Assembly: GCA_002840685.1 (NCBI GenBank)
Contig: PHBU01000011.1
Location: forward strand, 1-64,000
Reading direction: 5' to 3'
Length of the DNA: 64,000 bases
Source: Chloroflexi bacterium HGW-Chloroflexi-6
GTDB lineage: Bacteria > Chloroflexota > Anaerolineae > Anaerolineales > Villigracilaceae
The position numbers and the translations under genes are program-made. How positions within the stretch are numbered: position 1 is the first letter of the stretch; each line of letters begins with the position of its first letter. Shown here piece after piece: positions 19,192 to 36,692 of this stretch. Below the pieces are notes generated by a model. The model did no database searches. It was given only the letters and a program-made list of their open reading frames with translations, and was not told where the DNA came from.

Positions 19192-21759
19192 CTATACCAG
19201 CTGCTTCAACAACGCCAGGGTCTCGGCCTTGCCGCCCAGCCCATTTTCGCCGCCCGGCCCAACGCAGGACGGACAGCCATCCTCGCACGGACAGGCGCGG
19301 ACGTGCTCCAATCCGCGCGCCAGCAGTTCCGCGTGCAGTTCGAACAGGCGCTCGCTGAAGCCGATCCCGGCCGGGACCTGGTCGTAGAGCACCAGCGAGG
19401 GCAGGCCGTTGATGGCAAAGGCCTCCGGCTCGATGTGCAGCCCGAGATCATCCGAATCGCACATCAGGAAGAGCGGCGCCAGGCTGGCGAGCACATAGCC
19501 CAGCCCGGCCAGCCCGCTGCGCACGCGGACATTGGTCTCAGCCTTCTTATGGCATTCGTGACAAAGCGTGGTCAGGTTGGACAAATTATTGGCAGCGGCC
19601 CGGGCTTTTTCGGGGTATTCCGAAGCGCGCACATCAGTGCTGCGCATGAAAAAGCGAAAGGGCGTTTTGTGATGGACATCGTGCTGGCGCTGACCCTCAG
19701 CCGCGCCGCACACCTGGCAGCGGAACCCGTCCCGGGCGCGGACGCGCTCGCGGATCTTCGGCCACTCCGGACCATAATCGTTGGGAGAATTGGTCCACAG
19801 CCCGGCCCGGCTGAGCGACTCGACAGTTTCTTCCGAAATGGAGAGCCAGTAGCCGGTCGTTTGCAGGTCGCTCGGCGGCAAATCGAGCGGCTCCTGGCCG
19901 AGGATCTCTCCGCCGACCCAGGCCCGCTTGCGGAAGCCCGTCACCTGGCTCGTGACCTGAACTTCGCCCCAGGCCTTCTGCGCTGCTTCGGCCACGACCG
20001 ACAAGACCGTGACCGAGGTTTCTTTGAGCGGCTCGGTAAAATAATCGAGCGCGACCGGGATCAGCGTTGCGCGCCCGGCTTCAAGATCAAGCTCCTGAAC
20101 ATAATACTGCTGGGCTTCGTGCAAATAAACCGCCTTGGGATGCACCATCCAGGGCGCAGATTCGCGGTCGACTTCGCCCAGCAGGCGCGGCCGGTCCTCT
20201 TCCTCGGTTTGCAGAACCACATTCTCCGGCGAAGCCGAACGCAACGAAACCGCCGCCGCGGGATAAGCTTCGGACATCCAGAAGGTTTTTTCGACTGCTT
20301 CGTGCGCCTCGCCGCCCGCAGACAAGATTTGCAGGTATTCCTGGATCGTTTCAGCCGGCAAACTGCCAAAGCCCTCGTTCACGCCGAAGGGCAGCTCGAA
20401 CAGGGCGCAGCGGATGTGGTTGAGCAGGATCAGCAAATGGTCGGGGTTGATCAAGCCCTGCTCGGGGGAGCGGCCAAACAGGTATTCGGGGTGATGGGCT
20501 AGGAACTGGTCGAGCGGGGCGGGTGAGGCCAGCAGGATCGAAACCGCCGGAGCGTCCCCACGACCGGCGCGACCGGCCTGCTGATAAGTGGAGGCCACCG
20601 AGCCGGGATAGCCCACCAGCAGGGCCGCGCCCAGCCCGCCAATGTCGATGCCCAGTTCGAGGGCGTTGGTCGCCACCACCAGGCGCACTTCGCCGGAGCG
20701 CAGTCCCTGTTCGATCTCACGCCGGTGGGCGGGCAGGTAGCCCGAGCGGTAGCCGCGGATGGCGCCCCCACCCCGACTACCCCCTCCCCGGCCCTCCCCC
20801 AAATTCGTTGAATTTGGGGGAGGGTGCAGGGTGGGGGCTGAAGGGGGAAGATAGCTGAGTAAAAATTCAACGCTGCGCCGCGAACGGGCAAAAACGACGG
20901 TCTGGACATCGGCATCCAGCAATTCCTTGCCCAGCCGGACCGCCTCCTGCACGGACGATTTGCGCAGGCCAAGGGCCTCGTCCACCACGGGCGGGTTGTA
21001 GATCAGGAAATGCTTCTCGCCGCGCGCCGAACCATCGCGCTCGATCAAGGTCAGCGGGGCTTCGATCAGGCGTCTGGCCATCTCGGCCGGGTTGCCAATC
21101 GTGGCCGAAGTCAGGATGAACTGCGGGGTCGCCCCATAAAAGGCGGCGATCCGCTTCAGACGCCGGAGCACGTTGGCAACATGTGAACCAAACACGCCGC
21201 GATAAATATGCAGTTCATCGATGACCACAAACCTGAGATTGCGGAAAAACTCACTCCAGTTGGTGTGGTGCGGCAAAATGCCGGTATGGAGCATGTCCGG
21301 GTTGGACAGGATCACGCGCGCCTTCTCGCGCACCGCTTTCCGATGGGAGGTTGGCGTATCGCCATCATAGATCGCTGCCGGTACTGAAAACTGATCGATG
21401 AGCCCGGAAAACTGATCCTGGGCCAGGGCCTTGGTCGGGTAGAGATACAAGGCGCGCGCCAGCGGATTCTCCGTCAGCGCCGCCAGAACCGGCAGGTTAT
21501 AGGCCAGGGTCTTGCCGGAGGCCGTGCCTGTCGCCAGGACGATGTTCTCGCCGCGCTGCGCCGCATCCCAGGCCTCGGCCTGGTGACTGTACAGGGCCTG
21601 GATCCCACTCTTGGCCAGCGATTCAAGCAAAGGCCGGGGAAGCTCCAGCGGCAGCGGGCGCAGATCCGCCGCCCGCGCCGGGAAAACCTGCCAGTGCGAG
21701 ACGTTCGGCGCGGTCAGTTGGTCCTGGCGCAAATGATGGAGAAAGTCATCGAAAGACAT
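19192..21759 (-). CDS. mrfA: MrfA-like DEAD/DEAH helicase with HNH insertion
   Basis: 855-residue SF2 helicase. Walker A-type ATGTASGKTLAYNLP, DELH box (VVIDELHIYRG), TSATIGNP and QQAGRAGRGDAP are present; the C-terminal DUF1998-like region has a Cys cluster (CPCEDGCPSC, about 822-832), as in B. subtilis MrfA (YprA). Two inserts stand out: a Pro/Gly-rich segment (about 305-333) encoded by a palindromic repeat, and an HNH-type domain (about 672-740: CQVCG, VHHKTPF, LCHECH). The start is set at 21759, 6 nt after TACAAT; a TTG further upstream is in frame. MrfB-like gene follows. Expected to move on 3'-tailed DNA during repair; the HNH role is unknown. Confidence 0.9.
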   Translation of the reverse strand: MSFDDFLHHLRQDQLTAPNVSHWQVFPARAADLRPLPLELPRPLLESLAKSGIQALYSHQAEAWDAAQRGENIVLATGTASGKTLAYNLPVLAALTENPLARALYLYPTKALAQDQFSGLIDQFSVPAAIYDGDTPTSHRKAVREKARVILSNPDMLHTGILPHHTNWSEFFRNLRFVVIDELHIYRGVFGSHVANVLRRLKRIAAFYGATPQFILTSATIGNPAEMARRLIEAPLTLIERDGSARGEKHFLIYNPPVVDEALGLRKSSVQEAVRLGKELLDADVQTVVFARSRRSVEFLLSYLPPSAPTLHPPPNSTNLGEGRGGGSRGGGAIRGYRSGYLPAHRREIEQGLRSGEVRLVVATNALELGIDIGGLGAALLVGYPGSVASTYQQAGRAGRGDAPAVSILLASPAPLDQFLAHHPEYLFGRSPEQGLINPDHLLILLNHIRCALFELPFGVNEGFGSLPAETIQEYLQILSAGGEAHEAVEKTFWMSEAYPAAAVSLRSASPENVVLQTEEEDRPRLLGEVDRESAPWMVHPKAVYLHEAQQYYVQELDLEAGRATLIPVALDYFTEPLKETSVTVLSVVAEAAQKAWGEVQVTSQVTGFRKRAWVGGEILGQEPLDLPPSDLQTTGYWLSISEETVESLSRAGLWTNSPNDYGPEWPKIRERVRARDGFRCQVCGAAEGQRQHDVHHKTPFRFFMRSTDVRASEYPEKARAAANNLSNLTTLCHECHKKAETNVRVRSGLAGLGYVLASLAPLFLMCDSDDLGLHIEPEAFAINGLPSLVLYDQVPAGIGFSERLFELHAELLARGLEHVRACPCEDGCPSCVGPGGENGLGGKAETLALLKQLV
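20792..20824. repeat. Perfect palindromic repeat inside mrfA
   Basis: CCCTCCCCCAAATTC - gtt - GAATTTGGGGGAGGG, 15 bp perfect arms, flanked by more C- or G-rich text (about 20762-20850). It looks like an intergenic REP-type element that landed in frame within the helicase gene. Confidence 0.8.
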
Positions 21760-21765
21760 GCGCAA

Positions 21766-21771
21766 ATTGTA
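21766..21771 (-). promoter_or_regulatory. -10 box of mrfA, leaderless
   Basis: TACAAT on the minus strand, 6 nt before the ATG at 21759. TTGATT 16 bp upstream could be the -35. It faces the divergent -10 of the M1 peptidase gene only 13 bp away. Confidence 0.5.
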
Positions 21772-21784
21772 TCTGACTTTTCAG

Positions 21785-21790
21785 TATAAT
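21785..21790 (+). promoter_or_regulatory. -10 box of M1 peptidase gene, leaderless
   Basis: TATAAT, 6 nt before the ATG at 21797, without a Shine-Dalgarno. The -35 is weak. Confidence 0.5.
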
Positions 21791-21796
21791 CAAACA

Positions 21797-23536
21797 ATGC
21801 GCAGCGACACACACAACCAGCCCGCTTCAGCCGGCTTCGCAAAAATAGCCCGGTCAGCCCGCCTTAAGCCTGCCGAAGGGTTTACGTTCCGGCAGGCCAA
21901 CAGACCAACAAACCCACCCAAACGGATTGATCTGCTTGCCGGGCGATCCAAAGTCGGGAGACTTTGGACTCCACTCGTAATCCTGCTTTTCTTGATTCTC
22001 TCAGCCTGCGCGCCCATCCTGAATGCATCCCAGCCCTACTACTTCGTCACCGCCCAAAGCGCACCGACCCTGACCCCCTTCCAGCCGGGACAGGCCACCC
22101 CCGCCCCGACCTGGCCCATCCCACCCAGTGCAACGCCCAGCCCGACCGCGGTCCCGACGCTGACGGCCACCCACGCGCCGCCGACCAGTACCGCCCTGCA
22201 ATCGGGCTTCGAGAGTACACCCGATCTACCCGAAACCCCCGCCTCGAGGAACTCGGACGAGCTGCCGACCTACAACATCAACGCCCTGTGGAATTACACG
22301 GGGCGCAGCCTGACGGTTGCCCAGGAGATCATCTACCCCAACCGCAGCACGGATACGCTCAGCACCATTTTGCTGGCGGTCAACCCCAACCTGTGGCACG
22401 GGACCTTCGCGCTCGACTCGCTGACGGTCAACGATCAGGCCATCAGCAATTACACCCTTTCCGGCCAGACCCTGACCCTGCCGCTGCCGGCTCCGCTCGC
22501 CCCCGGCGCCAGCCTGCGCATCGGTCTCACCTACAGCCTGATCCTGCCCTACAGCTCCGGCACCTTCCAAAATTTCGGCTATACCGCCCGCCAAACCAAC
22601 CTGATCGACTGGTTCCCCTTTGTGCCGCCTTATTTCTCGGGCCAGGGCTGGGTTTTGAGCGAACCCTGGACCTACGGCGAAAACTTTGCCTATCCGCTGG
22701 CAAATTTTTTCATCGGGCTCAGTTTTACCGAAGCCAGCCCGCCGACCGTCGCCGCCAGCGCCCCGGCCATCCAGCAGGGCAACATGCTGCGCTATGTTCT
22801 GCGCGGCGCGCGCACCTTCACCTTCTCGGCCAGCTATGATTTCCAGGCCACAAGCAGCGAAGAGAACGGCATCACTGTCACTTCCTATTTCTTCCCCGAA
22901 CACTACGACGCCGGCCAGCGCATCCTGCTCGAAACCCAGGCCGCCATCCGCACCTACCAGAACGCCTTCGGCCCCTATCCGCACACCAGCCTGGCGATCG
23001 TCGAGACCGACCTGAACGACGGCCTCGAATCGGATGGCCTGTACTTCCTGGCCAGCAGCTTCTATGCCAACTACGATGGCAGCGCCGCCAACGACCTGGT
23101 CATGATCGGCATTCACGAAGCCGCCCACCAGTGGTGGTTTGGCGGCGTTTCGAACGACCAGGCCCTCGAACCCTGGCTCGACGAAGCCCTGTGCACCTAT
23201 AGCGAGCACATTTTCTACGAAGAGAATTATCCCAACCTGCTCAACTGGTGGTACAACGTCCGCATCCGCTACTACGGCCCGAGCGGCTACGCCGACACCC
23301 GCATCTACAACACCAACTCCTTCCGGGGCTACGTCAACGCCGTTTACCTGCGCGGCGCGCTCTTCCTCGATGACCTGCGCGACCGCATCGGCGACGAGGC
23401 CTTTTTCGCCTTCCTGCGCGACTACTATGCCCGTCACCAGGGGCGCATCGCCACGGCCGACACCTTTTTCGCTGTTCTGGCCGATCACACCTCCAACGCT
23501 GACGATCTGATAGGCAGCTACTTCTACTACCGATGA
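21797..23536 (+). CDS. M1-family metallopeptidase lipoprotein, first copy
   Basis: 579-residue gluzincin-type protein. The zinc motif HEAAH (residues 440-444) is followed by WWFGGVSND and the distal Glu region EPWLDEALCTYSEH, as in M1 aminopeptidases. A lipobox LSAC with Cys71 follows a hydrophobic helix, so it is probably a surface lipoprotein, with a Thr/Pro linker to about residue 145. Unusually, 55 residues precede the signal helix; they are encoded by hairpin-rich sequence (21868-21968) and may be a recent addition. The start is supported by TATAAT 6 nt before the ATG. It overlaps the paralogous next gene by ATGA. Confidence 0.85.
   Translation: MRSDTHNQPASAGFAKIARSARLKPAEGFTFRQANRPTNPPKRIDLLAGRSKVGRLWTPLVILLFLILSACAPILNASQPYYFVTAQSAPTLTPFQPGQATPAPTWPIPPSATPSPTAVPTLTATHAPPTSTALQSGFESTPDLPETPASRNSDELPTYNINALWNYTGRSLTVAQEIIYPNRSTDTLSTILLAVNPNLWHGTFALDSLTVNDQAISNYTLSGQTLTLPLPAPLAPGASLRIGLTYSLILPYSSGTFQNFGYTARQTNLIDWFPFVPPYFSGQGWVLSEPWTYGENFAYPLANFFIGLSFTEASPPTVAASAPAIQQGNMLRYVLRGARTFTFSASYDFQATSSEENGITVTSYFFPEHYDAGQRILLETQAAIRTYQNAFGPYPHTSLAIVETDLNDGLESDGLYFLASSFYANYDGSAANDLVMIGIHEAAHQWWFGGVSNDQALEPWLDEALCTYSEHIFYEENYPNLLNWWYNVRIRYYGPSGYADTRIYNTNSFRGYVNAVYLRGALFLDDLRDRIGDEAFFAFLRDYYARHQGRIATADTFFAVLADHTSNADDLIGSYFYYR
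21868..21968. repeat. Hairpin-rich segment in the M1 gene 5' end
   Basis: GCCTGCCG (21868-21875) pairs with CGGCAGGC (21890-21897), and TCCAAAGTC (21947-21955) pairs with GACTTTGGA (21960-21968). Both are perfect. They encode the unusual N-terminal extension of the first M1 protein and look like repeat elements taken into coding sequence. Confidence 0.5.
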
Positions 23537-25059
23537 AAAAACTAACCCTGCTCTTTCTTTCTGGATTAATTCTGCTCACTGGCTGTCTGCCCATCCCCGA
23601 CATTGTCACCGTTACCCCGGCCCCCGCCAGCCCTCAGGCCGCCACGCTGACTCCCTTGGGAGCCGCCTCGCCGACAAACCCGCCGCAGGTGGCCCTGACC
23701 CCGCTCCCGTCAATCCCCGTCCCGAGCGCCACCGCAGCGCCAACCCCGACAGCGCCGCCCACAGCCGCGATCCTGCCTTACTATCTGATCGATGTCAGCC
23801 TGGATTACGATGCCAAAACTGTGGCCGTTGCCCAGCAGATCCGCTACACCAACCAGACCGGCACACCGCTCAACGATCTGATGCTGGCGGTCGTCCCCAA
23901 CCTGTGGACGGGCGCCTTTCGCCTCGAAAAGCTGACCATCTTCGAGCTGCTCGAACCGGAATACAAGCTGGATGGTCAGCGCCTGACCATCCAACTCCCC
24001 GACCCGCTCCCGCCGGAGGCCGAGATCACGCTCCAGATTGGCTACACGCTTGACCTACCTGAACACAATCCCAATCCCGACCCCAACCTCGTCCGCCCCG
24101 ATATTTTTGGCTATACAACCAACCAGCTCAATCTCGTCGATTGGTACCCGTTCATCGTGCCCTACGAAGAAGGCTGGCTGCTGAGTGATCCCTGGTTCTA
24201 TGGCGAACACCTGGCCTACGACCTGGCCGATTTCGATGTCAAATTGACCTTCGCCAACCCCGAGCGCGCGCCGGTCGTCGCAGCCAGCGGCCAATTCGAT
24301 GGCAATCAGTATTCACTCAAAGCCGGGCGGACCTTTGCGATGTCGATGAGTCGCGAGTACATGCTGGCCAGCGCCAACGTGGAACGGACTCAGGCCAACA
24401 GCTACTACTTCCCCTACTACGAGGCGGGCGGGAAAGCCGCCCTGGATGCCACCGTCCGCGCTGTGCAGACATTTACGCGCCTGCTTGGCCCTTACCGCCA
24501 CCAATCGCTGGCCGTCGTCCAGGGCGATTTCAACGATGGCATGGAGTATGACGGACTGTATTTCCTGCCAAATTCATTTTATAACCTGTACGATAATACC
24601 GAACGCAATTATCTGGTGATGGTTGCCGCCCACGAGACCAGCCATATGTGGTGGTTTGGCGCGGTCGGCAACGATCAGGCCAACGAGGCCTGGCTCGATG
24701 AAAGCCTGGCCACCTACAGCGAACGCCTGTTTTACGAAGACAACTATCCCAACGATGTTGATTGGTGGTGGAGTTACCGGGTCACGTTCTACGCGCCGGA
24801 AGGCAAGATCGATAATCCCGTGCCAAGCTACGGCGGATTCACTCCCTACACCAACGCCACCTACCGGCGCGGGGCGCTCTTCCTTGAAGATCTGCGCGCG
24901 CGCACCGGCGATGAAGCCTTTTTCGCTTTCCTGAAAGATTACTACACCCAGATGGCCGGCCAGCGCGCCACCCGCGCCGATTTTTTCAGGGTTTTATCCC
25001 AACACAGCACTGCCGACATCTCCGATTTGTTGATCGAATATTTCGAAAAACAACCCTAG
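23533..25059 (+). CDS. M1-family metallopeptidase lipoprotein, second copy
   Basis: 508-residue paralogue of the preceding gene. The signal peptide MKKLTLLFLSGLILLTGC has lipobox Cys18, then a Pro/Thr-rich linker to about residue 80, then an N-terminal beta domain. The zinc motif HETSH (367-371), WWFGAVGND and EAWLDESLATYSER are intact. Translation is coupled to the first copy through ATGA. Expected to release N-terminal residues from peptides outside the cell, feeding peptide uptake. No GAMEN-type exopeptidase motif was seen, so amino- versus endopeptidase activity is open. Confidence 0.87.
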   Translation: MKKLTLLFLSGLILLTGCLPIPDIVTVTPAPASPQAATLTPLGAASPTNPPQVALTPLPSIPVPSATAAPTPTAPPTAAILPYYLIDVSLDYDAKTVAVAQQIRYTNQTGTPLNDLMLAVVPNLWTGAFRLEKLTIFELLEPEYKLDGQRLTIQLPDPLPPEAEITLQIGYTLDLPEHNPNPDPNLVRPDIFGYTTNQLNLVDWYPFIVPYEEGWLLSDPWFYGEHLAYDLADFDVKLTFANPERAPVVAASGQFDGNQYSLKAGRTFAMSMSREYMLASANVERTQANSYYFPYYEAGGKAALDATVRAVQTFTRLLGPYRHQSLAVVQGDFNDGMEYDGLYFLPNSFYNLYDNTERNYLVMVAAHETSHMWWFGAVGNDQANEAWLDESLATYSERLFYEDNYPNDVDWWWSYRVTFYAPEGKIDNPVPSYGGFTPYTNATYRRGALFLEDLRARTGDEAFFAFLKDYYTQMAGQRATRADFFRVLSQHSTADISDLLIEYFEKQP

Positions 25060-27488: not shown

Positions 27489-29393
27489 ATGAAAATAAAG
27501 GGCTGGCTTGCAGTGGGTGTCGTTGTTTTGATCGTAGCCATCGGGGTCATCGCGTATTATTTTTCCCTGCCGCGCATCTCAAGATTTGAACCGGGTGCCG
27601 GGCCGCTTTCGCAAACTGTCACCGCTCGCGCGGGGGAAGAAACGATCATTACTCTGGAGGATGGTGCAACATTGATCATCCCCGCCCACGCGCTTTCCGC
27701 GGATGCCCAAGTCACATTCAGACGCAACCCGGAAAAAGTAGCCGGTTTCCCGGAGCTTGAAGAAGGGCTGACTCCCCTGAGCGAATTTTATGATGTCACC
27801 ATCGAAAGACAGCCTTTGAACACATTGGTGACACTGATGATACCTTTTGATCTTGCCCGGGTGCCTGATGAACAGCAGGATGGGTTTCTGGCGGCGCTCT
27901 TCCCCGCTGAAACCGGGTGGGATGTCGTTCCCGTGGAATCCAGGGGAGGTACGGCGATTGTCGTTACAGACCAACTAGGCGACCCATTAATTGCATGGCA
28001 CTTTGCGCCCTGCCCGCCACGCCGCTACGAGTCTTCGCAATATTGCGAAGATTACAAGGCTGCACTTGAAAAAAGAGCCATCTGCTCTCCTCGCATCCCA
28101 CTGCGCATGGTGGCGCTGGAAGATGGAACGGGGTTCACGATTATTGGCAGGCTGGTACCTGGCCAGACCACCTATGCAGGGTTTGTCCCCCGCACCCCTG
28201 CCGCCAACCAGACTGTGACGATCTACGTCAACAAAAAAATACCCTTGCACACCAGCATGAACAAACTGAAAGTGCAGACCGATGCCGATGGGAATTTCCA
28301 AACAACCTTGCTCTTTTCGGATCCCCTAGGCGACCTTGTAACCGGAGAAAACTTCATCCGCGCATCGGCGGAGTGCGGCAGGTGGCCCGGGGAAACGACT
28401 GTGTTAAGTAAAGGATGGGCGTGGGGATATATGCCTGTTGCGGATGAAGAAACTCCACAAGCTATGCAGGATTTTATTGACCCGGTAGTCAAGCCACAAG
28501 CCAGCATTGAAAAGCCATACCTTGTAGAAGTGCCGGATGTAGTGGGCATGACCAAAGACGAAGCAATCGCCGCGCTCTTGAGAGCAGGTGTAAGCATTGC
28601 ACTGGGAAACGGGCGCAGCGCCTACGCGCCGGGAATAGTGTTTTCACAAACCCCACAGGCTGGCATGTTGATGGACCCTTACCAATCTTCGGTGTTGATT
28701 TACGTTACCACCGAGCAAATTCCGAATGGGCCTTCAGGGGTCATGCCGCAGTTTTTATATGCAAGGTATGAGTGCATCCAAAGAAATCAATACTCTGAAA
28801 GAAAAGGAACACTGAGCACGGATTGTAAAAACTGGTTTTATCAATACACAAATGTAAACGGGCAACTGGTGGTCGAATCCCCAATCCCTGATGGTTCGGG
28901 CAATACTGAAACAAAAGAATTGGATTCCAGGATCTTTGAAGGGATGAAGACCCCCATTACCAGCTATGGGACAGGCCGGTTCTTGTGGTTGCCGGCGTTC
29001 GATATTTCATACACAACCGAACCAAACGAATTTATCATTCCCAATTATTCGGTATTCACATCCGGCTACACCTACGCCCAAGTCGGCGCACAACCCATTG
29101 CGATTGCCGGAATCAACTTTAATGCTGTCGTATTTTCGGAAGAATATGATGTAACCATTGAATCCGTGAATGAGTTCAACTCCGGCGCTTACACCAAGTG
29201 GCAAAACCATGTGCGGGTGATGGAATACTTTGACAGTACGTCAGGACTGCTCCTGCGCACGGAAAGATATGAATATCATGTGTCCTGCGAGACAAATGAT
29301 GATATTCCTGCCTGCGCCAATGGAACGTATGTGGGTACAGAAGATATCAGCATATTTCAGCTAGTCGCCAGCAATTTGTTAGAGCTACCATAA
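27489..29393 (+). CDS. Membrane-anchored PASTA-domain protein, unknown function
   Basis: 634-residue protein with an N-terminal anchor (residues 5-24) and large extracytoplasmic part. Residues about 45-150 have ITLEDGATLIIPAHALSADAQVTF and LVTLMIPFDL, like the ZU5/GAIN-proximal beta folds seen in secreted proteins. Residues about 345-410 form one PASTA-like domain (VEVPDVVGMTKDEAIAALLRAG, FSQTPQAG). A Cys-rich stretch (CPPRRYESSQYCEDY) lies between them. The last 220 residues match nothing recognised. GGGAGG precedes the ATG; a strong terminator follows. No kinase is adjacent, so a PASTA signalling role cannot be claimed. Confidence 0.7.
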   Translation: MKIKGWLAVGVVVLIVAIGVIAYYFSLPRISRFEPGAGPLSQTVTARAGEETIITLEDGATLIIPAHALSADAQVTFRRNPEKVAGFPELEEGLTPLSEFYDVTIERQPLNTLVTLMIPFDLARVPDEQQDGFLAALFPAETGWDVVPVESRGGTAIVVTDQLGDPLIAWHFAPCPPRRYESSQYCEDYKAALEKRAICSPRIPLRMVALEDGTGFTIIGRLVPGQTTYAGFVPRTPAANQTVTIYVNKKIPLHTSMNKLKVQTDADGNFQTTLLFSDPLGDLVTGENFIRASAECGRWPGETTVLSKGWAWGYMPVADEETPQAMQDFIDPVVKPQASIEKPYLVEVPDVVGMTKDEAIAALLRAGVSIALGNGRSAYAPGIVFSQTPQAGMLMDPYQSSVLIYVTTEQIPNGPSGVMPQFLYARYECIQRNQYSERKGTLSTDCKNWFYQYTNVNGQLVVESPIPDGSGNTETKELDSRIFEGMKTPITSYGTGRFLWLPAFDISYTTEPNEFIIPNYSVFTSGYTYAQVGAQPIAIAGINFNAVVFSEEYDVTIESVNEFNSGAYTKWQNHVRVMEYFDSTSGLLLRTERYEYHVSCETNDDIPACANGTYVGTEDISIFQLVASNLLELP

Positions 29394-30588: not shown

Positions 30589-31380
30589 TTAAGTGACAAT
30601 CGACAAAACCCGGTCAAGCCCGGCCAGGTCTTTTAAAACCTGGATCTTTGCGCCGGGGAACTGGCGCGCGGCTGTTTCGAGCGCCAACTGCCCCAGACCC
30701 GACTCGATCTCGACCAGGAGCGCGCCACCCGGCGCCAGCCACCGTTTCGATTCGACGAGCAAACGCCGGATGGTGTCCATCCCATCCGGGCCGCCATCCA
30801 GGGCCAGGGTCGGTTCGCGGCCAAACACTTCCAGGCCATGCAAAGTTTCGGTGGGGATGTATGGCGGGTTCGAGAGGATGAGATCAAAGCTCGCGGATTG
30901 AAGATCAAGCGGGAAAAGATCAGCTTCGCAAAAACGGATGCGCCCCCCCACCCCGTGCTTTTCGGCGTTTAAGCGGGCGATCGTCAGGGCCGCCGGAGAA
31001 ATATCCGTTGCGACGATCTCGGCATTCGGAAGCACGGTCGCCAGGGTGACGGGGATGCAGCCCGAGCCTGTGCCAATATCAATCAAACGGGAGCCGGGCC
31101 CAAGCTGAGTCCGCGCCAGGTCGATCAGCAGTTCCGTCTCCGGGCGCGGGATCAGCACCTCGGGCGTGACGATAAAATCCAGCCCGTAAAATTCCCAATG
31201 ACCGAGAATATAAGGCAGCGGTTCGCCCTGTTCGAAGCGTTGGCGGGCCTGTTGAAAGGCCTGCTCCTGTTCGGGCGTCAGACTGGCTTCGGGGTGGGCA
31301 AACAGCCAGGCCCGGTTGCGCCCGGTGACATGCGCCAGGAGAACCTGCATTTCGAAGCTTCTGAGCCAGTCTTTAATCAC
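30589..31380 (-). CDS. prmC: Release factor glutamine methyltransferase
   Basis: 263-residue SAM-dependent N5-glutamine methyltransferase that methylates the GGQ glutamine of RF1 and RF2. The SAM motif LIDIGTGSGCIPVTLA and the catalytic LILSNPPYIPTE are complete; the N-terminal helical domain is present but short. The start is taken as GTG 31380 (GGAAG 5 nt upstream); TTG at 31392 is the alternative. Either way it overlaps the MalG-like permease gene. Its usual partner prfA is 4.2 kb upstream, separated by a glycosyltransferase-permease cassette. Confidence 0.93.
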   Translation of the reverse strand: MIKDWLRSFEMQVLLAHVTGRNRAWLFAHPEASLTPEQEQAFQQARQRFEQGEPLPYILGHWEFYGLDFIVTPEVLIPRPETELLIDLARTQLGPGSRLIDIGTGSGCIPVTLATVLPNAEIVATDISPAALTIARLNAEKHGVGGRIRFCEADLFPLDLQSASFDLILSNPPYIPTETLHGLEVFGREPTLALDGGPDGMDTIRRLLVESKRWLAPGGALLVEIESGLGQLALETAARQFPGAKIQVLKDLAGLDRVLSIVT

Positions 31381-32230
31381 CGGCGCTTCCAAAAGTCATA
31401 CGGTTGAGCAGGCTGCGCTGCAAAAGGATAAATACCAGCACGACCGGGGCTGCAATGATCAGCGCCAGTGAGCCGAGGTAGCTCCAGGGCTGCGCGCCGC
31501 CCTGATATTGGGTCTGGACAATGGCATAGATCGCCATCGCGAGCGTGACCGTATCGGCTTTCTCGACAAACAGCCAGCCCAGGGCAAACTCTGAATAAGC
31601 CGTCAGAAAAGCCACCAACCCGGCAACAGCAATCGCAGGCAGGGCCAGCGGCAGGGTGATGAAAAAGAAAGTCTTAAGGTCGCTGGCTCCATCCAGAAAG
31701 GCGGCTTCCTCGATCTCTTTCGGAATGGCCTGGAAGGTTGAGCGCATATTCCAGATGCAAAAGGGCATGCCAAAGGCCGCATAAACGATTATGAGCGCCA
31801 TCAGCGTGGTGCGGATTCCGATCATGCTGAGCAGAATGTATAGCGGGGCCATAAAGGCTACCGGCGGCAGGACAGCGGTCAACAAAAGGGCAAAAAGCCC
31901 GGCATTCCGCCCCGGAAAGCGGAAACGGGCAAAAGCATAGGCCAGGCTGATGCCAAGCAAGATGGCCAGCCCCGCCGCGCTGAACGAAACCAGCATGCTG
32001 TTTTTAAGCAGGGAAAGGAAATCCACCGATTGGTAAGGCCGGTCGAGAACTTTCAAAAAGGCTTCGAGCGAAAAGATCTTTGGAAACCAGAGAAATTCAG
32101 TCGGGCGGCCCTTCAGACTGCCATCGAAAGCCAAACGGGCAATGCCCCAGATGGGGATCAGCACAAACAGGCCGGTCAGGGCCAGCAGGAACTGGGTAAT
32201 GAACTGGCGAAGCGTAGAAATCTTACGCAT
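31373..32230 (-). CDS. ABC sugar transporter permease, MalG type
   Basis: 285-residue inner-membrane permease with six transmembrane segments. The EAA loop, about residues 185-205, reads KEIEEAAFLDGASDLK and continues into ITLPLALP, contacting the ATPase. MalG-type permeases pair with a MalF-type permease, here the C-terminal half of the preceding fusion gene, which overlaps it by 8 nt. No solute-binding protein or ATPase gene is nearby, so the system is incomplete in this window. Carbohydrate specificity cannot be told. Its 3' end overlaps prmC. Confidence 0.88.
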   Translation of the reverse strand: MRKISTLRQFITQFLLALTGLFVLIPIWGIARLAFDGSLKGRPTEFLWFPKIFSLEAFLKVLDRPYQSVDFLSLLKNSMLVSFSAAGLAILLGISLAYAFARFRFPGRNAGLFALLLTAVLPPVAFMAPLYILLSMIGIRTTLMALIIVYAAFGMPFCIWNMRSTFQAIPKEIEEAAFLDGASDLKTFFFITLPLALPAIAVAGLVAFLTAYSEFALGWLFVEKADTVTLAMAIYAIVQTQYQGGAQPWSYLGSLALIIAAPVVLVFILLQRSLLNRMTFGSAGD

Positions 32231-34412
32231 AGGTCACTCCTTCGCTGGCTTTGCTCCAACGGTTGAAGATGATGACGAAACCGATCAGGATCAGCACGGT
32301 TAGAACGTTGATCACAGATGAAATGGCAAACTGCCCGCCCAAGGGATGAAACCCGCCGGAGTTAAAGATATTGTAGGCCATCGTCGCCAGGGTACCTTCG
32401 AGAGCAAAAAAAGCCTGGAAAAGATAGAACTGGTTGAAGGCAAAAATCCCGCGCACAATGATCGCTGGCAGGAGCAGCGGCAGAAGCAGCGGCCAGGTGA
32501 TGTAGCGGAAAATCTGGAGAGAAGTTGCGCCGTCCATGGCGGCCGCATCGTACACTTCGTCAGGGATCATTCTCAGCCCGGCACTGGCCGCCATCATCAT
32601 GAACGGGAAGCCATACCAAACAGCGGGGATCAGGAAAACCAGAATCCACAAATCGGCGCTGTTTTCCCAACCGACCAGAAACCCAAAGGGAATGTTTGGG
32701 CCAAAGTCTTTGACCGCCAGCGCCAGCCAGCCGCGCTCCGGCTGGAAGATGTTGACCCACATCAGGGCCCCGATCATTTCAGGAATGGCCCAGGGAACGA
32801 TAAACAGCGCCTGCCAGAACTTGCCGAGCCGCACACCGCGCTGCCAGAGCAGGAGCGCAATGCCCAACCCGAGCGCGGATTGCAAAATCACAGAAAAAAC
32901 CGTCCACAGAATGTTGAAGATCAGGATTCCCCGATCAGTGATATACCCCAGAGCCGGCATGAAATTGATCGGGCCGATAAAATTGACCTGCGTGGCACGA
33001 TAAGGAAATTCCGGGGATATGACGACGGGAGCCTGGCCGGTCAGCCCGCCGAAAATGGCACGCCATAATCCGCCTTGCAGTCCATCGCGGATGGAAGCAA
33101 CGCTGAAATCGGTGAAGGAAACCCCCAACTGAAAAACGAGCGGGAAAAGGGTCAAAACAAGAAAGGCGATCAGTCCAGGGATGAGCCAAGCCCAGGCGCG
33201 GCGCAGTTCGTTCTTTTGGGGTGCGGCGAGCATCGCTTTATCCTTGCGATTCACCCACCAGGCTTTGAGCGGATCAACGATCAGGGCCATGAACCCTTCA
33301 GCGGCGGAGAGAGCGAGCGGCACACTATACATAATATTGTATTGCGCCCATTTGGTCGGCCAGACAAACAGGAAGGCCAGGGCAACAATCATCCAGAGCA
33401 CATACAGGCGCTCTTTTTTCCACAGGCGTTTCAGCCCAAAGGCGGCGAAAATGGCAATGAACGGGTCAAACGGAAAAATGAAAACCCCGTTTTGCCACCA
33501 CCAGTAAGGAGAAAAGGTTAAATACACCAGGGATTGGTAAAAGGGGTGGCCGGCATTCTGCACTTCAACGGCTCCGCTGGCATACCCGGCATGATAAAAA
33601 ACCGATTCTTGCAGGCGATTGATCGGGTCAGGCCATAGATACGGGTTTGTGGCAAAAAATACCAAAACGGCAATCAGCCCCCAGAGCAGCATGGGAACAT
33701 AGCGACGAAGCCCCTTGCCGGCCTCGCGCAACTTCCTCCAACCCGGGAATTTTGGGGAAGGCATGCCAAGGAACCAGTCAATCAAGATCGCAATCCCAAC
33801 CACGCAGTACAGGTATTTACTGGAGGCGGTCAGCCCCAGGAAAAGCGCGGAAAGCGCCAGCCAATTCCAGCGGCGGGTTGAGTTTTTGCTTTTGAGATAA
33901 GCCAGGATCGTGATCAGGCTGGTCAGCGAGGGCAGCGATTCAAGCATGACCTGTGAAACATATTTAATATTAAAAGTATGGATGCTCAGCGCAAACCCGG
34001 CCAGGGGATTGATTAAAGCGACGATGCCGACCACCAGCGTCCCGATGACGGCCCCCAACGTGCGGGCGTGGATCAGGTGCGGGCGCGGCAGAGTCGGGTC
34101 GGGCGGCGCACTGGTCCCCCGGTCTGGGATGAGTCGTACTTCCTTGTCGCCGGCGATCGCCCAGCCATACAGGATTTTCAACAACGGCGGGTGTTCAGGA
34201 CGGTAGTTATAGTCCATCAGGCCAGTCAGATCGCCGGAACGGATGACGGCGGCATATTCCTGGGCGGCGCGCAGGTAATCGTCTTCATCGTAATCGACCG
34301 GCAGGTAGGTGGCAGCGTTCAAGCGCAAGTTCCAGGCCAGGGCGATCACCAGTACCACGCTCAAAATATATAAAATGATACGAAACAACTTCAGTGAGAT
34401 GAAATTCTTCAT
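32223..34412 (-). CDS. GT-C glycosyltransferase fused to MalF-type ABC permease
   Basis: 729-residue protein in one uninterrupted frame. Residues 1 to about 395 are a GT-C (PMT/ArnT-like) membrane glycosyltransferase: acidic first loop PVDYDEDDYLRAA (about 39-50), RPEHPPLLKILYGWA (about 71), WPDPINRL, and VWPTKWAQYN. Residues about 402-729 are a MalF-type permease: RRAWAWLIPGLIAFLVLTLFP, then the EAA loop DEVYDAAAMDGATSLQ running into ITWPLLLP. The linker (about 385-402) is short and charged. The previous gene is a stand-alone paralogue of the N-terminal half, overlapping by ATGA; the MalG-like partner follows with 8 nt overlap. I know of no such fusion. It could couple sugar transfer from a lipid carrier to transport, or simply keep two proteins together. 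Confidence 0.85.
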   Translation of the reverse strand: MKNFISLKLFRIILYILSVVLVIALAWNLRLNAATYLPVDYDEDDYLRAAQEYAAVIRSGDLTGLMDYNYRPEHPPLLKILYGWAIAGDKEVRLIPDRGTSAPPDPTLPRPHLIHARTLGAVIGTLVVGIVALINPLAGFALSIHTFNIKYVSQVMLESLPSLTSLITILAYLKSKNSTRRWNWLALSALFLGLTASSKYLYCVVGIAILIDWFLGMPSPKFPGWRKLREAGKGLRRYVPMLLWGLIAVLVFFATNPYLWPDPINRLQESVFYHAGYASGAVEVQNAGHPFYQSLVYLTFSPYWWWQNGVFIFPFDPFIAIFAAFGLKRLWKKERLYVLWMIVALAFLFVWPTKWAQYNIMYSVPLALSAAEGFMALIVDPLKAWWVNRKDKAMLAAPQKNELRRAWAWLIPGLIAFLVLTLFPLVFQLGVSFTDFSVASIRDGLQGGLWRAIFGGLTGQAPVVISPEFPYRATQVNFIGPINFMPALGYITDRGILIFNILWTVFSVILQSALGLGIALLLWQRGVRLGKFWQALFIVPWAIPEMIGALMWVNIFQPERGWLALAVKDFGPNIPFGFLVGWENSADLWILVFLIPAVWYGFPFMMMAASAGLRMIPDEVYDAAAMDGATSLQIFRYITWPLLLPLLLPAIIVRGIFAFNQFYLFQAFFALEGTLATMAYNIFNSGGFHPLGGQFAISSVINVLTVLILIGFVIIFNRWSKASEGVTYA

Positions 34413-35530
34413 AGTGAGCCTCTTCGGAAACCTATCAGATCACTCCATATCGCTTTAAAGAGTATGAGCACAGCTTCGCCAGCAGCAAGTGAAAGTGGGG
34501 CAGTCAAAACAAGAATGTACTGCGGCCATTTCGTCGGCCAGACAAGCAGGAAAGCCAACCCAACCGCCAGCCAGAGCACGAAAACTCGTTCATTTTTCCA
34601 CAGACGTACCAACCCAAAGATGGACATACTAACGATGAACATGTCGAGTGAGAACATAAAAACATTCTGTGGATGCCAGTCTGAGGCAGAGGTGACAAGC
34701 CAGATAAAAGGTTGGTAAATAGGAAAACCCGACTGCACCACTTCCTGGGCCGAGCTGGAATAATTTGAGTGATAAGCAAGTGCCTCAGTCAACCTGCCTA
34801 TGGGATCGGGCCACAGATAGGGATTGGCAACCAGAAAGGCCAGAAGCGAAAAACTGCCCCAAAGTGTGGCAGTGCGTAAGAAGAATCCCCAACCCTGGCG
34901 GGTGTGCGGCGTGGAGATGATCCAATCTAGCAAAATGGCAAAGCCAACCAATGCATACAAAAACTTCCCGGCCGCGGTCAACCCCAAAAAGATGGCCGAG
35001 GCGATCCACCACAGATTGCGAGGCGAGTTGTGGCGTTTGTAAGCAACATAACACAATACAGCCAACAGACTGGTAAAAGAGGGTAGGGCTTCCAGCATGA
35101 TCTCGCTGGAGTATTTGATAGTCATCGTGTGGGCAGCCAGGAAAAACCCGGCAAAGGGGTTGACCAGAGCCAGGACACCAGCGGTCAGTGCCCCGAAGGC
35201 CACGGAAACGCGGCGCGCATTGAAACCCGATGGGGAGAGAACCGCCTGGTTGGGGTCGCCAATCATATCTTTCTCAAAGGTTGGCAAAATCGCCCAACCA
35301 AAGAGAATTTTGTTCAAAGGCGGATGTTCGGGGTTGGGATTGGTTTGTAAGAAACCGGCCCAATCGCCCAATTGCACCAAATCTGCGAACTGACTGGCCG
35401 CCGACAAATAGATCCCTTCATCGGCATCAGGCGGGAGGTTACTGGCAGCTTTCCAACGCAGATTCCAGGCCAGGGCGATCACCAGCAAAGCGGCGAGAAT
35501 ACGGAGAATTGGAATGAGTTTTTTCAGCAT
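34409..35530 (-). CDS. GT-C family membrane glycosyltransferase
   Basis: 373-residue polytopic protein, paralogous to the N-terminal half of the next gene. Acidic first loop PPDADEGIYLSAA (about residues 35-47), NPEHPPLNKILFGWA, ANPYLWPDPIGRL and WPTKWPQYILVL are shared. GT-C enzymes use lipid-linked sugars and act on the outer face of the membrane. The start at 35530 is preferred for AAGGATG; a longer frame to 35581 runs into the hairpin region. It opens a coupled cassette (ATGA with the fusion gene) inserted between prfA and prmC. A terminator-like hairpin lies just before its Shine-Dalgarno. Confidence 0.85.
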   Translation of the reverse strand: MLKKLIPILRILAALLVIALAWNLRWKAASNLPPDADEGIYLSAASQFADLVQLGDWAGFLQTNPNPEHPPLNKILFGWAILPTFEKDMIGDPNQAVLSPSGFNARRVSVAFGALTAGVLALVNPFAGFFLAAHTMTIKYSSEIMLEALPSFTSLLAVLCYVAYKRHNSPRNLWWIASAIFLGLTAAGKFLYALVGFAILLDWIISTPHTRQGWGFFLRTATLWGSFSLLAFLVANPYLWPDPIGRLTEALAYHSNYSSSAQEVVQSGFPIYQPFIWLVTSASDWHPQNVFMFSLDMFIVSMSIFGLVRLWKNERVFVLWLAVGLAFLLVWPTKWPQYILVLTAPLSLAAGEAVLILFKAIWSDLIGFRRGSL

Positions 35531-35545
35531 GCATCCATCCTTCAA

Positions 35546-35592
35546 CAAAAATCCGCAGATATCACCAACCTGAATTGGCAAAACCTGCGGAT
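35546..35592 (-). terminator. Terminator or attenuator between prfA and the GT-C cassette
   Basis: On the minus strand ATCCGCAG (35585-35592) pairs with CTGCGGAT (35551-35558), followed by TTTTTG. The loop has a minor CCAA...TTGG hairpin. Only about 15-20 nt separate it from the next ATG, so the cassette must rely on readthrough, or on regulated attenuation. Confidence 0.7.
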
Positions 35593-35615: not shown

Positions 35616-36692
35616 TTATTCGTCGTCATCGTCTGCGCCCGCCGAGAGCCGGTCGGCCTCATCGCGCGTCGAAAGTTCTTCGATGAAAATTTCAATTTCA
35701 CCGTTCATCACGACCGGCAGGTTATACGAAGAAACCCCGATACGATGATCGGTAACGCGGCTCTGCGGGTAGTTGTAAGTGCGGATCTTTTCGGAACGCT
35801 CGCCCGTGCCGACCTGTGAACGGCGATCAGCTTCCTGCTCGGCATTGCGTTTATTTTCTGCCAACTCGAACAGGCGCGCGCGCAAAATGCTCATGGCGCG
35901 CAGTTTGTTTTGCAGTTGCGAGCGTTCATCTTGACAGGTCACAACCATGCCGGTCGGTTTATGGGTCAGACGCACAGCGGTCGAGTTCTTCTGAACGTTT
36001 TGCCCACCTGCTCCAGCCGATTTGTAAACCTCGACTTCGACATCCGACTCAGGGATATTGATCTCAACTTCGTCCACTTCGGCCATCACAGCAACCGTGG
36101 CGGTGGAGGTGTGGATGCGCCCCTGCGACTCGGTCGCCGGAACGCGCTGGACGCGATGCACGCCAGACTCATATTTGAGTTTGGAATAGGCACCCTGGCC
36201 CTTGATCTCAAAGGTGATTTCCTTGTAACCGCCAATCCCGATTTCGTTGGCCGAAAGAATTTCAGATTTCCAGTGCTGGCGCTCGGCGTAGAGCGAATAC
36301 ATGCGGAACAGATCCGCCGCAAACAGGGCCGCCTCGTCGCCGCCGGTGCCGGCCCGAACTTCGAAAATAACATTCTTATTATCACGCGGATCTTTTGGCA
36401 CGAGCATGCTCTTAAGCGCGGCTTCGATCTCAGGGATCTTCGCTTCAAGTTCAGCCACTTCCATCTCGGCCAGGGCCAGCATTTCGCCATCGGTTTCTGA
36501 TTCAAGCATGGATTTGGCTTCATCCAGGCTTTTCAGCGCAACACGATATTCGCGGGCGGTTTCAACCAATTTTTCGAGATCGCTACGTTCCTTGTTCAAC
36601 TCCGCCGCGCGCTGGTAATCGTTGCCGACTTCCATCAACTGGCGGGTTAATTCTTCGTAGCGCTCTTCAATGCCTTCAAGTTTTTCGAGCAT
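35616..36692 (-). CDS. prfA: Peptide chain release factor 1
   Basis: 358-residue class I release factor for UAA and UAG stops. The anticodon-like PAT motif is in RVPATESQGRIHTS, which marks RF1 rather than RF2, and the catalytic GGQ is in SAGAGGQNVQKNS. Length and domain order are standard. GGATGATC precedes the ATG. It has its own TATAAT promoter and a 5' hairpin (36718-36754). prmC, whose product methylates the GGQ glutamine, is normally next but here lies 4.2 kb downstream. Confidence 0.97.
   Translation of the reverse strand: MLEKLEGIEERYEELTRQLMEVGNDYQRAAELNKERSDLEKLVETAREYRVALKSLDEAKSMLESETDGEMLALAEMEVAELEAKIPEIEAALKSMLVPKDPRDNKNVIFEVRAGTGGDEAALFAADLFRMYSLYAERQHWKSEILSANEIGIGGYKEITFEIKGQGAYSKLKYESGVHRVQRVPATESQGRIHTSTATVAVMAEVDEVEINIPESDVEVEVYKSAGAGGQNVQKNSTAVRLTHKPTGMVVTCQDERSQLQNKLRAMSILRARLFELAENKRNAEQEADRRSQVGTGERSEKIRTYNYPQSRVTDHRIGVSSYNLPVVMNGEIEIFIEELSTRDEADRLSAGADDDDE

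Follow-up and report, generated by a model that had tools for sequence, protein, structure and literature searches.

A GT-C glycosyltransferase and a MalF-type permease in one reading frame

The analysed window comprises 64,000 nucleotides of the 5.26 Mb genome of Chloroflexi bacterium HGW-Chloroflexi-6 (C26:1-64000). It carries on the minus strand a single open reading frame of 729 codons with an ATG start and without internal stops, in which a GT-C glycosyltransferase (GT) is joined to a MalF-type ABC permease (Table 1). The surrounding gene order, referred to as context A, is uvrC, response regulator, prfA, (GT paralogue), fusion, MalG, prmC and sua5. In agreement with the original prediction, the gene preceding the fusion is a stand-alone paralogue of its first half (approximately 47-50% identity, 4-base overlap) and the following gene encodes an overlapping MalG-class partner. 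The window also contains two related lipoprotein-like genes in tandem (21758-25059), both with HExxH-type metalloprotease motifs (HEAAH and HETSH), and a gene for a membrane-anchored 634-aa protein with a PASTA-like segment (27489-29393).

Table 1. Genes and protein features of the fusion locus, with positions in the window.
Feature	Position	Strand	Basis or remark
GT-C::MalF fusion gene	32223..34412	-	729 aa; ORF, family search, alignment, AlphaFold2 model, structure comparison
GT-C glycosyltransferase half, residues 1-378	33279..34412	-	Pmt4/ArnT fold; catalytic-type residues invariant
Acidic first-loop motif DYDEDDY, residues 40-46	34275..34295	-	Alignment of 38 fusions
EHPPL motif, residues 73-77	34182..34196	-	E73, H74, P75 invariant in all fusions
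Basic linker, residues 379-404	33201..33278	-	Mean K+R 6.4, D+E 2.7; predicted cytosolic
MalF-type permease half, residues 405-729 and stop	32223..33200	-	Pfam, AlphaFold2 model, structure comparison
Fusion-specific insert after first MalF helix, residues 440-460	33033..33095	-	Largely missing in same-family canonical MalF
EAA coupling loop, residues 615-630	32523..32570	-	A623, A624, D627, G628, A629 conserved as in canonical MalF
MalG-type partner permease	31373..32230	-	Start overlaps fusion stop by 8 bases
Stand-alone GT-C paralogue	34409..35581	-	Likely start ATG 35530; motif DADEGIYL
prfA, upstream flank	35616..36692	-	Context A
prmC, downstream flank	30589..31392	-	Context A

An AlphaFold2 model of the fusion, calculated with 44 natural fusions as input (alignment A1), reached a mean pLDDT of 87.4 and a pTM of 0.87. 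Comparison with solved structures matched the GT half to Pmt4 (Z 25.9, rmsd 3.5, 352 residues) and ArnT (Z 25.6, rmsd 3.6, 313 residues), and the permease half to SugA (Z 24.4, rmsd 2.8, 280 residues, model residues 399-729) and MalF (Z 23.8, residues ~397-729). Reading frame, model and structure comparison thus show both halves of the predicted union. The two-part layout, which had been placed at about residues 1-395 and 402-729, was recovered with other borders: the GT half ends at about residue 378 and MalF begins at about residue 405.

Pfam assigned BPD_transp_1 to residues 515-717 (56.5 bits, cut-off 26.4) and returned no model above cut-off for the first half of the window protein, PMT and PMT_2 included, so that automatic annotation would overlook the glycosyltransferase. 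A sequence-profile search with the GT half (A2) against solved structures gave neither a PMT/ArnT nor any other match, and the fold comparison was therefore needed for the assignment. The PMT_2 model scored above cut-off in the distant fused relative L137 (32.8 vs 26.1) and the PMT model in L138 (23.6 vs 22.7). For the permease half, the NCBIfam MalF equivalog NF008232 yielded 94.1 bits, which is below its cut-off of 392.

Sequence conservation in both halves

The acidic first loop and the HPPL motif noted in the original prediction were both found. D40, D42, E43, D44, D45 and Y46 are invariant in the 38 fusions compared, and the D/E residues of this loop, together with E73, H74 and P75, do not vary across 44 fusions. 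D44 and D45 are fixed in the fusions, whereas most unfused relatives differ at both positions. The acidic character of the first loop and the basic one of the joining loop are as expected for a cytosolic junction with the GT active site outside. Judged from these features, the GT half is likely an active-type, outward-facing glycosyltransferase and the linker probably lies in the cytosol.

On the permease side, the EAA loop is intact, as predicted. The insert behind the first MalF helix contains four glycines (G447, G448, G456, G459) that face gaps in 49/49 canonical MalF sequences. The membrane-path residues R654, Q661, Y663 and E545 are family-specific and unlike those in the maltodextrin MalF that these genomes also encode, which means that the substrate may differ. 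From these sequence features, we infer that the permease half works, with an altered substrate or docking surface. Comparing the window with L043, dN/dS was 0.18 for the GT half, 0.05 for the junction (26 codons only), 0.13 for the MalF half and 0.09 for MalG. These values indicate that GT half, junction and MalF half are under purifying selection.

Distribution of the fusion in Chloroflexota

Within the family, about 150 genomes were searched, and 48 of them, including the window's own, proved to carry a collinear fusion, full or partial. The possibility that no other genome carries the fusion is decisively contradicted. The reading frame is single and uninterrupted in 44 aligned fusion genes. 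A 400-genome sample of the phylum added three fusions from one further family (G177, G507 and G493; 41-46% identity) and one from another (G421; 40% identity), and in each case a MalG of the same type comes next. In a scan of ~85,000 species, which detects close relatives only, every record with a full fusion bore the label of Chloroflexota or of one of its subgroups. A plasmid collection contained matches in 421 records, none of them with at least 80% query coverage, and the best rows cover the MalF half alone.

The 8-base overlap between the MalG start and the fusion stop was found at 31 of 38 loci, and wherever the contig extends beyond an intact fusion, MalG either overlaps it or comes shortly after. 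Two damaged copies were recorded: L085:8531-9862 encodes a truncated fusion consisting of the GT and the first MalF helix, with MalG lost, and L078:8315-9619, from a long-read assembly, has a broken frame. In a tree of the GT halves, all fusions fall into one group. The paralogues linked to prfA belong to it too, as does a small number of copies that are unfused or broken. With several inner branches undecided, a single origin followed by later losses would be the simplest reading of this tree.

Association with maltodextrin import genes

Two contexts dominate among the fusion loci, context A being the commoner one. In context B, represented by ~12 relatives, fusion and MalG lie within a maltodextrin cluster in the order MsmK-type ATPase, ROK regulator, MalE, MalF, MalG, GH13 amylase, fusion, MalG and GH13, with the families confirmed. 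The same cluster exists minus the fusion in close relatives (e.g. L147), and fusion and MalG therefore constitute an accessory module. In the distant relative L050, a MalE-type protein is encoded directly before fusion and MalG.

Neither an ATPase nor a binding protein is adjacent to the fusion in context A. The earlier statement that none is near accordingly applies to the window, but not to relatives, where they are direct neighbours, nor to the genome as a whole, which encodes MalE-MalF-MalG-GH13 on C27 (L112) and MsmK on C23 (L113). On these grounds, an orphan transporter without partners was rejected for the relatives and for the whole genome, in which the MalE-type protein and MsmK are candidate partners of the fusion.

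The MalE family was present in 43 of the 48 fusion genomes in comparison to 15 of the 102 others, with genomes treated as independent and the total set to 150 (counting the own genome inside or beside the sample shifts the count by no more than 1). Within the largest genus, again with genomes treated as independent, the corresponding numbers were 26/30 and 3/25 (p about 2e-8).

Unfused GT homologues show a similar neighbourhood. They are encoded without MalF directly after MalE-MalF-MalG (L142, L143), beside GH13 (L141, L095) or amid GH13 and GH57 genes (L093), which indicates that the tie of this GT family to alpha-glucan uptake is independent of the fusion. Some of the unfused relatives bear a C-terminal propeller domain: the proteins of ~700 aa encoded at L093:7061-9166 and L142:9117-11252, among MalEFG, GH13 and GH57 genes, end in a propeller of the two-component-regulator type. 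At L054:489-2867, a 792-aa protein combining Peripla_BP_4 and SBP_bac binding-protein domains is encoded directly before an unfused GT-C gene, and at L090:8544-9692 the stand-alone paralogue occupies the prfA-prmC position alone, without fusion or MalG.

We also considered O-glycosylation of the Thr/Pro-rich tether of MalE as the task of the GT. The linkers of the MalE lipoproteins, from lipobox to binding domain, showed no visible Ser/Thr enrichment in fusion versus fusion-free genomes, and the linker in the window's own genome is nearly Ser/Thr-free. This indirect comparison lends the idea no support.

Proposed role of the fusion and alternative readings

With middling confidence, we propose that the fusion and its MalG form an accessory ABC import pair of the maltodextrin type, in which MalF bears an outward-facing, lipid-sugar-dependent glycosyltransferase. 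Together, the two proteins would span the membrane as the permease subunits of a type I (MalFG-class) sugar importer and would probably be produced in step via translational coupling. An MsmK-type ATPase may energise the pair and a MalE-type lipoprotein may feed it, both in common with the maltodextrin system of the cell. With its active site at the outer face, the GT half would take a polyprenyl-phosphate sugar as donor, and its acceptor would be handled by the same system, for example the incoming oligosaccharide, a surface lipoprotein or a neighbouring glycan.

The original prediction had spoken of a machine joining sugar transfer to transport. That both belong to one system is supported by the fusion itself, by the conserved way in which its stop overlaps the MalG start and by the repeated linkage to maltodextrin clusters, including that of unfused relatives; functional coupling of the two activities is a candidate reading. 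Several observations speak against this proposal. The clusters already contain a full MalFG and occur without the fusion, which makes the fusion optional. No ATPase or binding protein adjoins the fusion in the commoner context A, five fusion genomes are without the tested MalE family, and the membrane-path residues named above leave room for another substrate.

A somewhat less probable explanation, which we consider possible, is that the two activities are independent and fused for co-localisation only, with sugar import on the one hand and PMT- or ArnT-like glycosylation of lipids, glycans or lipoproteins at the surface on the other and no exchange of substrate. The closest folds of the GT half, Pmt4 and ArnT, fit such a division, as do the stand-alone paralogue preceding the fusion in the window and the unfused relatives beside MalEFG or GH13 genes, whose link to uptake needs no fusion. 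However, O-glycosylation of the MalE linkers is not supported by their Ser/Thr content as described above, and none of the loci read showed a recognisable surface-polysaccharide cluster near the fusion.

The covalent bond between GT and permease, the invariant GT residues together with the conserved fusion-specific insert in the permease half, and the retention of the fusion with MalG across families and contexts would fit a closer coupling. It is unlikely, though worth stating, that one membrane protein, acting as both outward-facing GT and ABC importer, glycosylates the incoming sugar or its delivering binding protein in the course of uptake; to our knowledge, such a mode of transport is undescribed. 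Still more doubtful is the specific version in which the oligosaccharide offered by the binding protein is altered by the GT half ahead of or during its uptake by the MalF/MalG half, or in which the GT half removes a sugar from this oligosaccharide and transfers it to polyprenyl phosphate. Relatives get by with an unfused GT, and we know of no precedent for import-coupled glycosyl transfer.

A GT half devoid of catalytic activity, acting as a scaffold or receptor, appears very improbable. The lack of recognition of the window protein by the Pfam PMT models would be in line with it, but ten residues (D40, D42, E43, H74, K79, R117, K199, W260, Q357, Y358) show no variation in 38 fusions and 20 unfused relatives, and dN over residues 36-80 is only 0.03 between the window and L043. 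Finally, an assembly or gene-calling artefact can be dismissed: nothing favours it, the same fusion recurs in dozens of independent assemblies, among them the two one-contig assemblies (G008 and G063), and the frame-broken L078 and truncated L085 copies are exceptions.

Comparison with known systems

Each half of the fusion belongs to a known fold class, and the union of the two is undescribed in the open-access literature that we searched. GT-C enzymes, which build glycans outside the cell, and type I ABC importers, which bring sugars in, are large families that are normally treated separately. The conserved covalent union suggests that, in Chloroflexota, glycosyl transfer outside the cell is linked to the uptake of starch sugars, and offers a handle on the role of unassigned GT-C proteins encoded beside sugar transporters.

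A MalF with an added functional domain may have a precedent. Among PDB entries, the L050 binding protein matched best to 6ffl ('Maltose/maltodextrin transport permease homologue', a solved binding-protein-type domain), which we take to come from a naturally occurring MalE-MalF fusion in Bdellovibrio; our open-access literature search retrieved no account of that fusion. The domain added there is a binding protein, whereas here it is a glycosyltransferase.

Compared to Pmt4 and ArnT, the GT half is alike in fold and in the acidic first loop, but it is shorter, shares 12-16% identity, lacks the C-terminal periplasmic domain and is joined to an ABC permease instead. With MalF/MalG of the E. coli maltose transporter and SugA/SugB of mycobacteria, the fusion has in common the permease fold, the intact EAA loop and a MalG-class partner encoded next to it. 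In contrast to MalF and SugA, it carries ~400 extra N-terminal residues that form the GT-C enzyme, as well as a conserved insert and membrane-path residues of its own, and the large P2 domain of E. coli MalF is missing.
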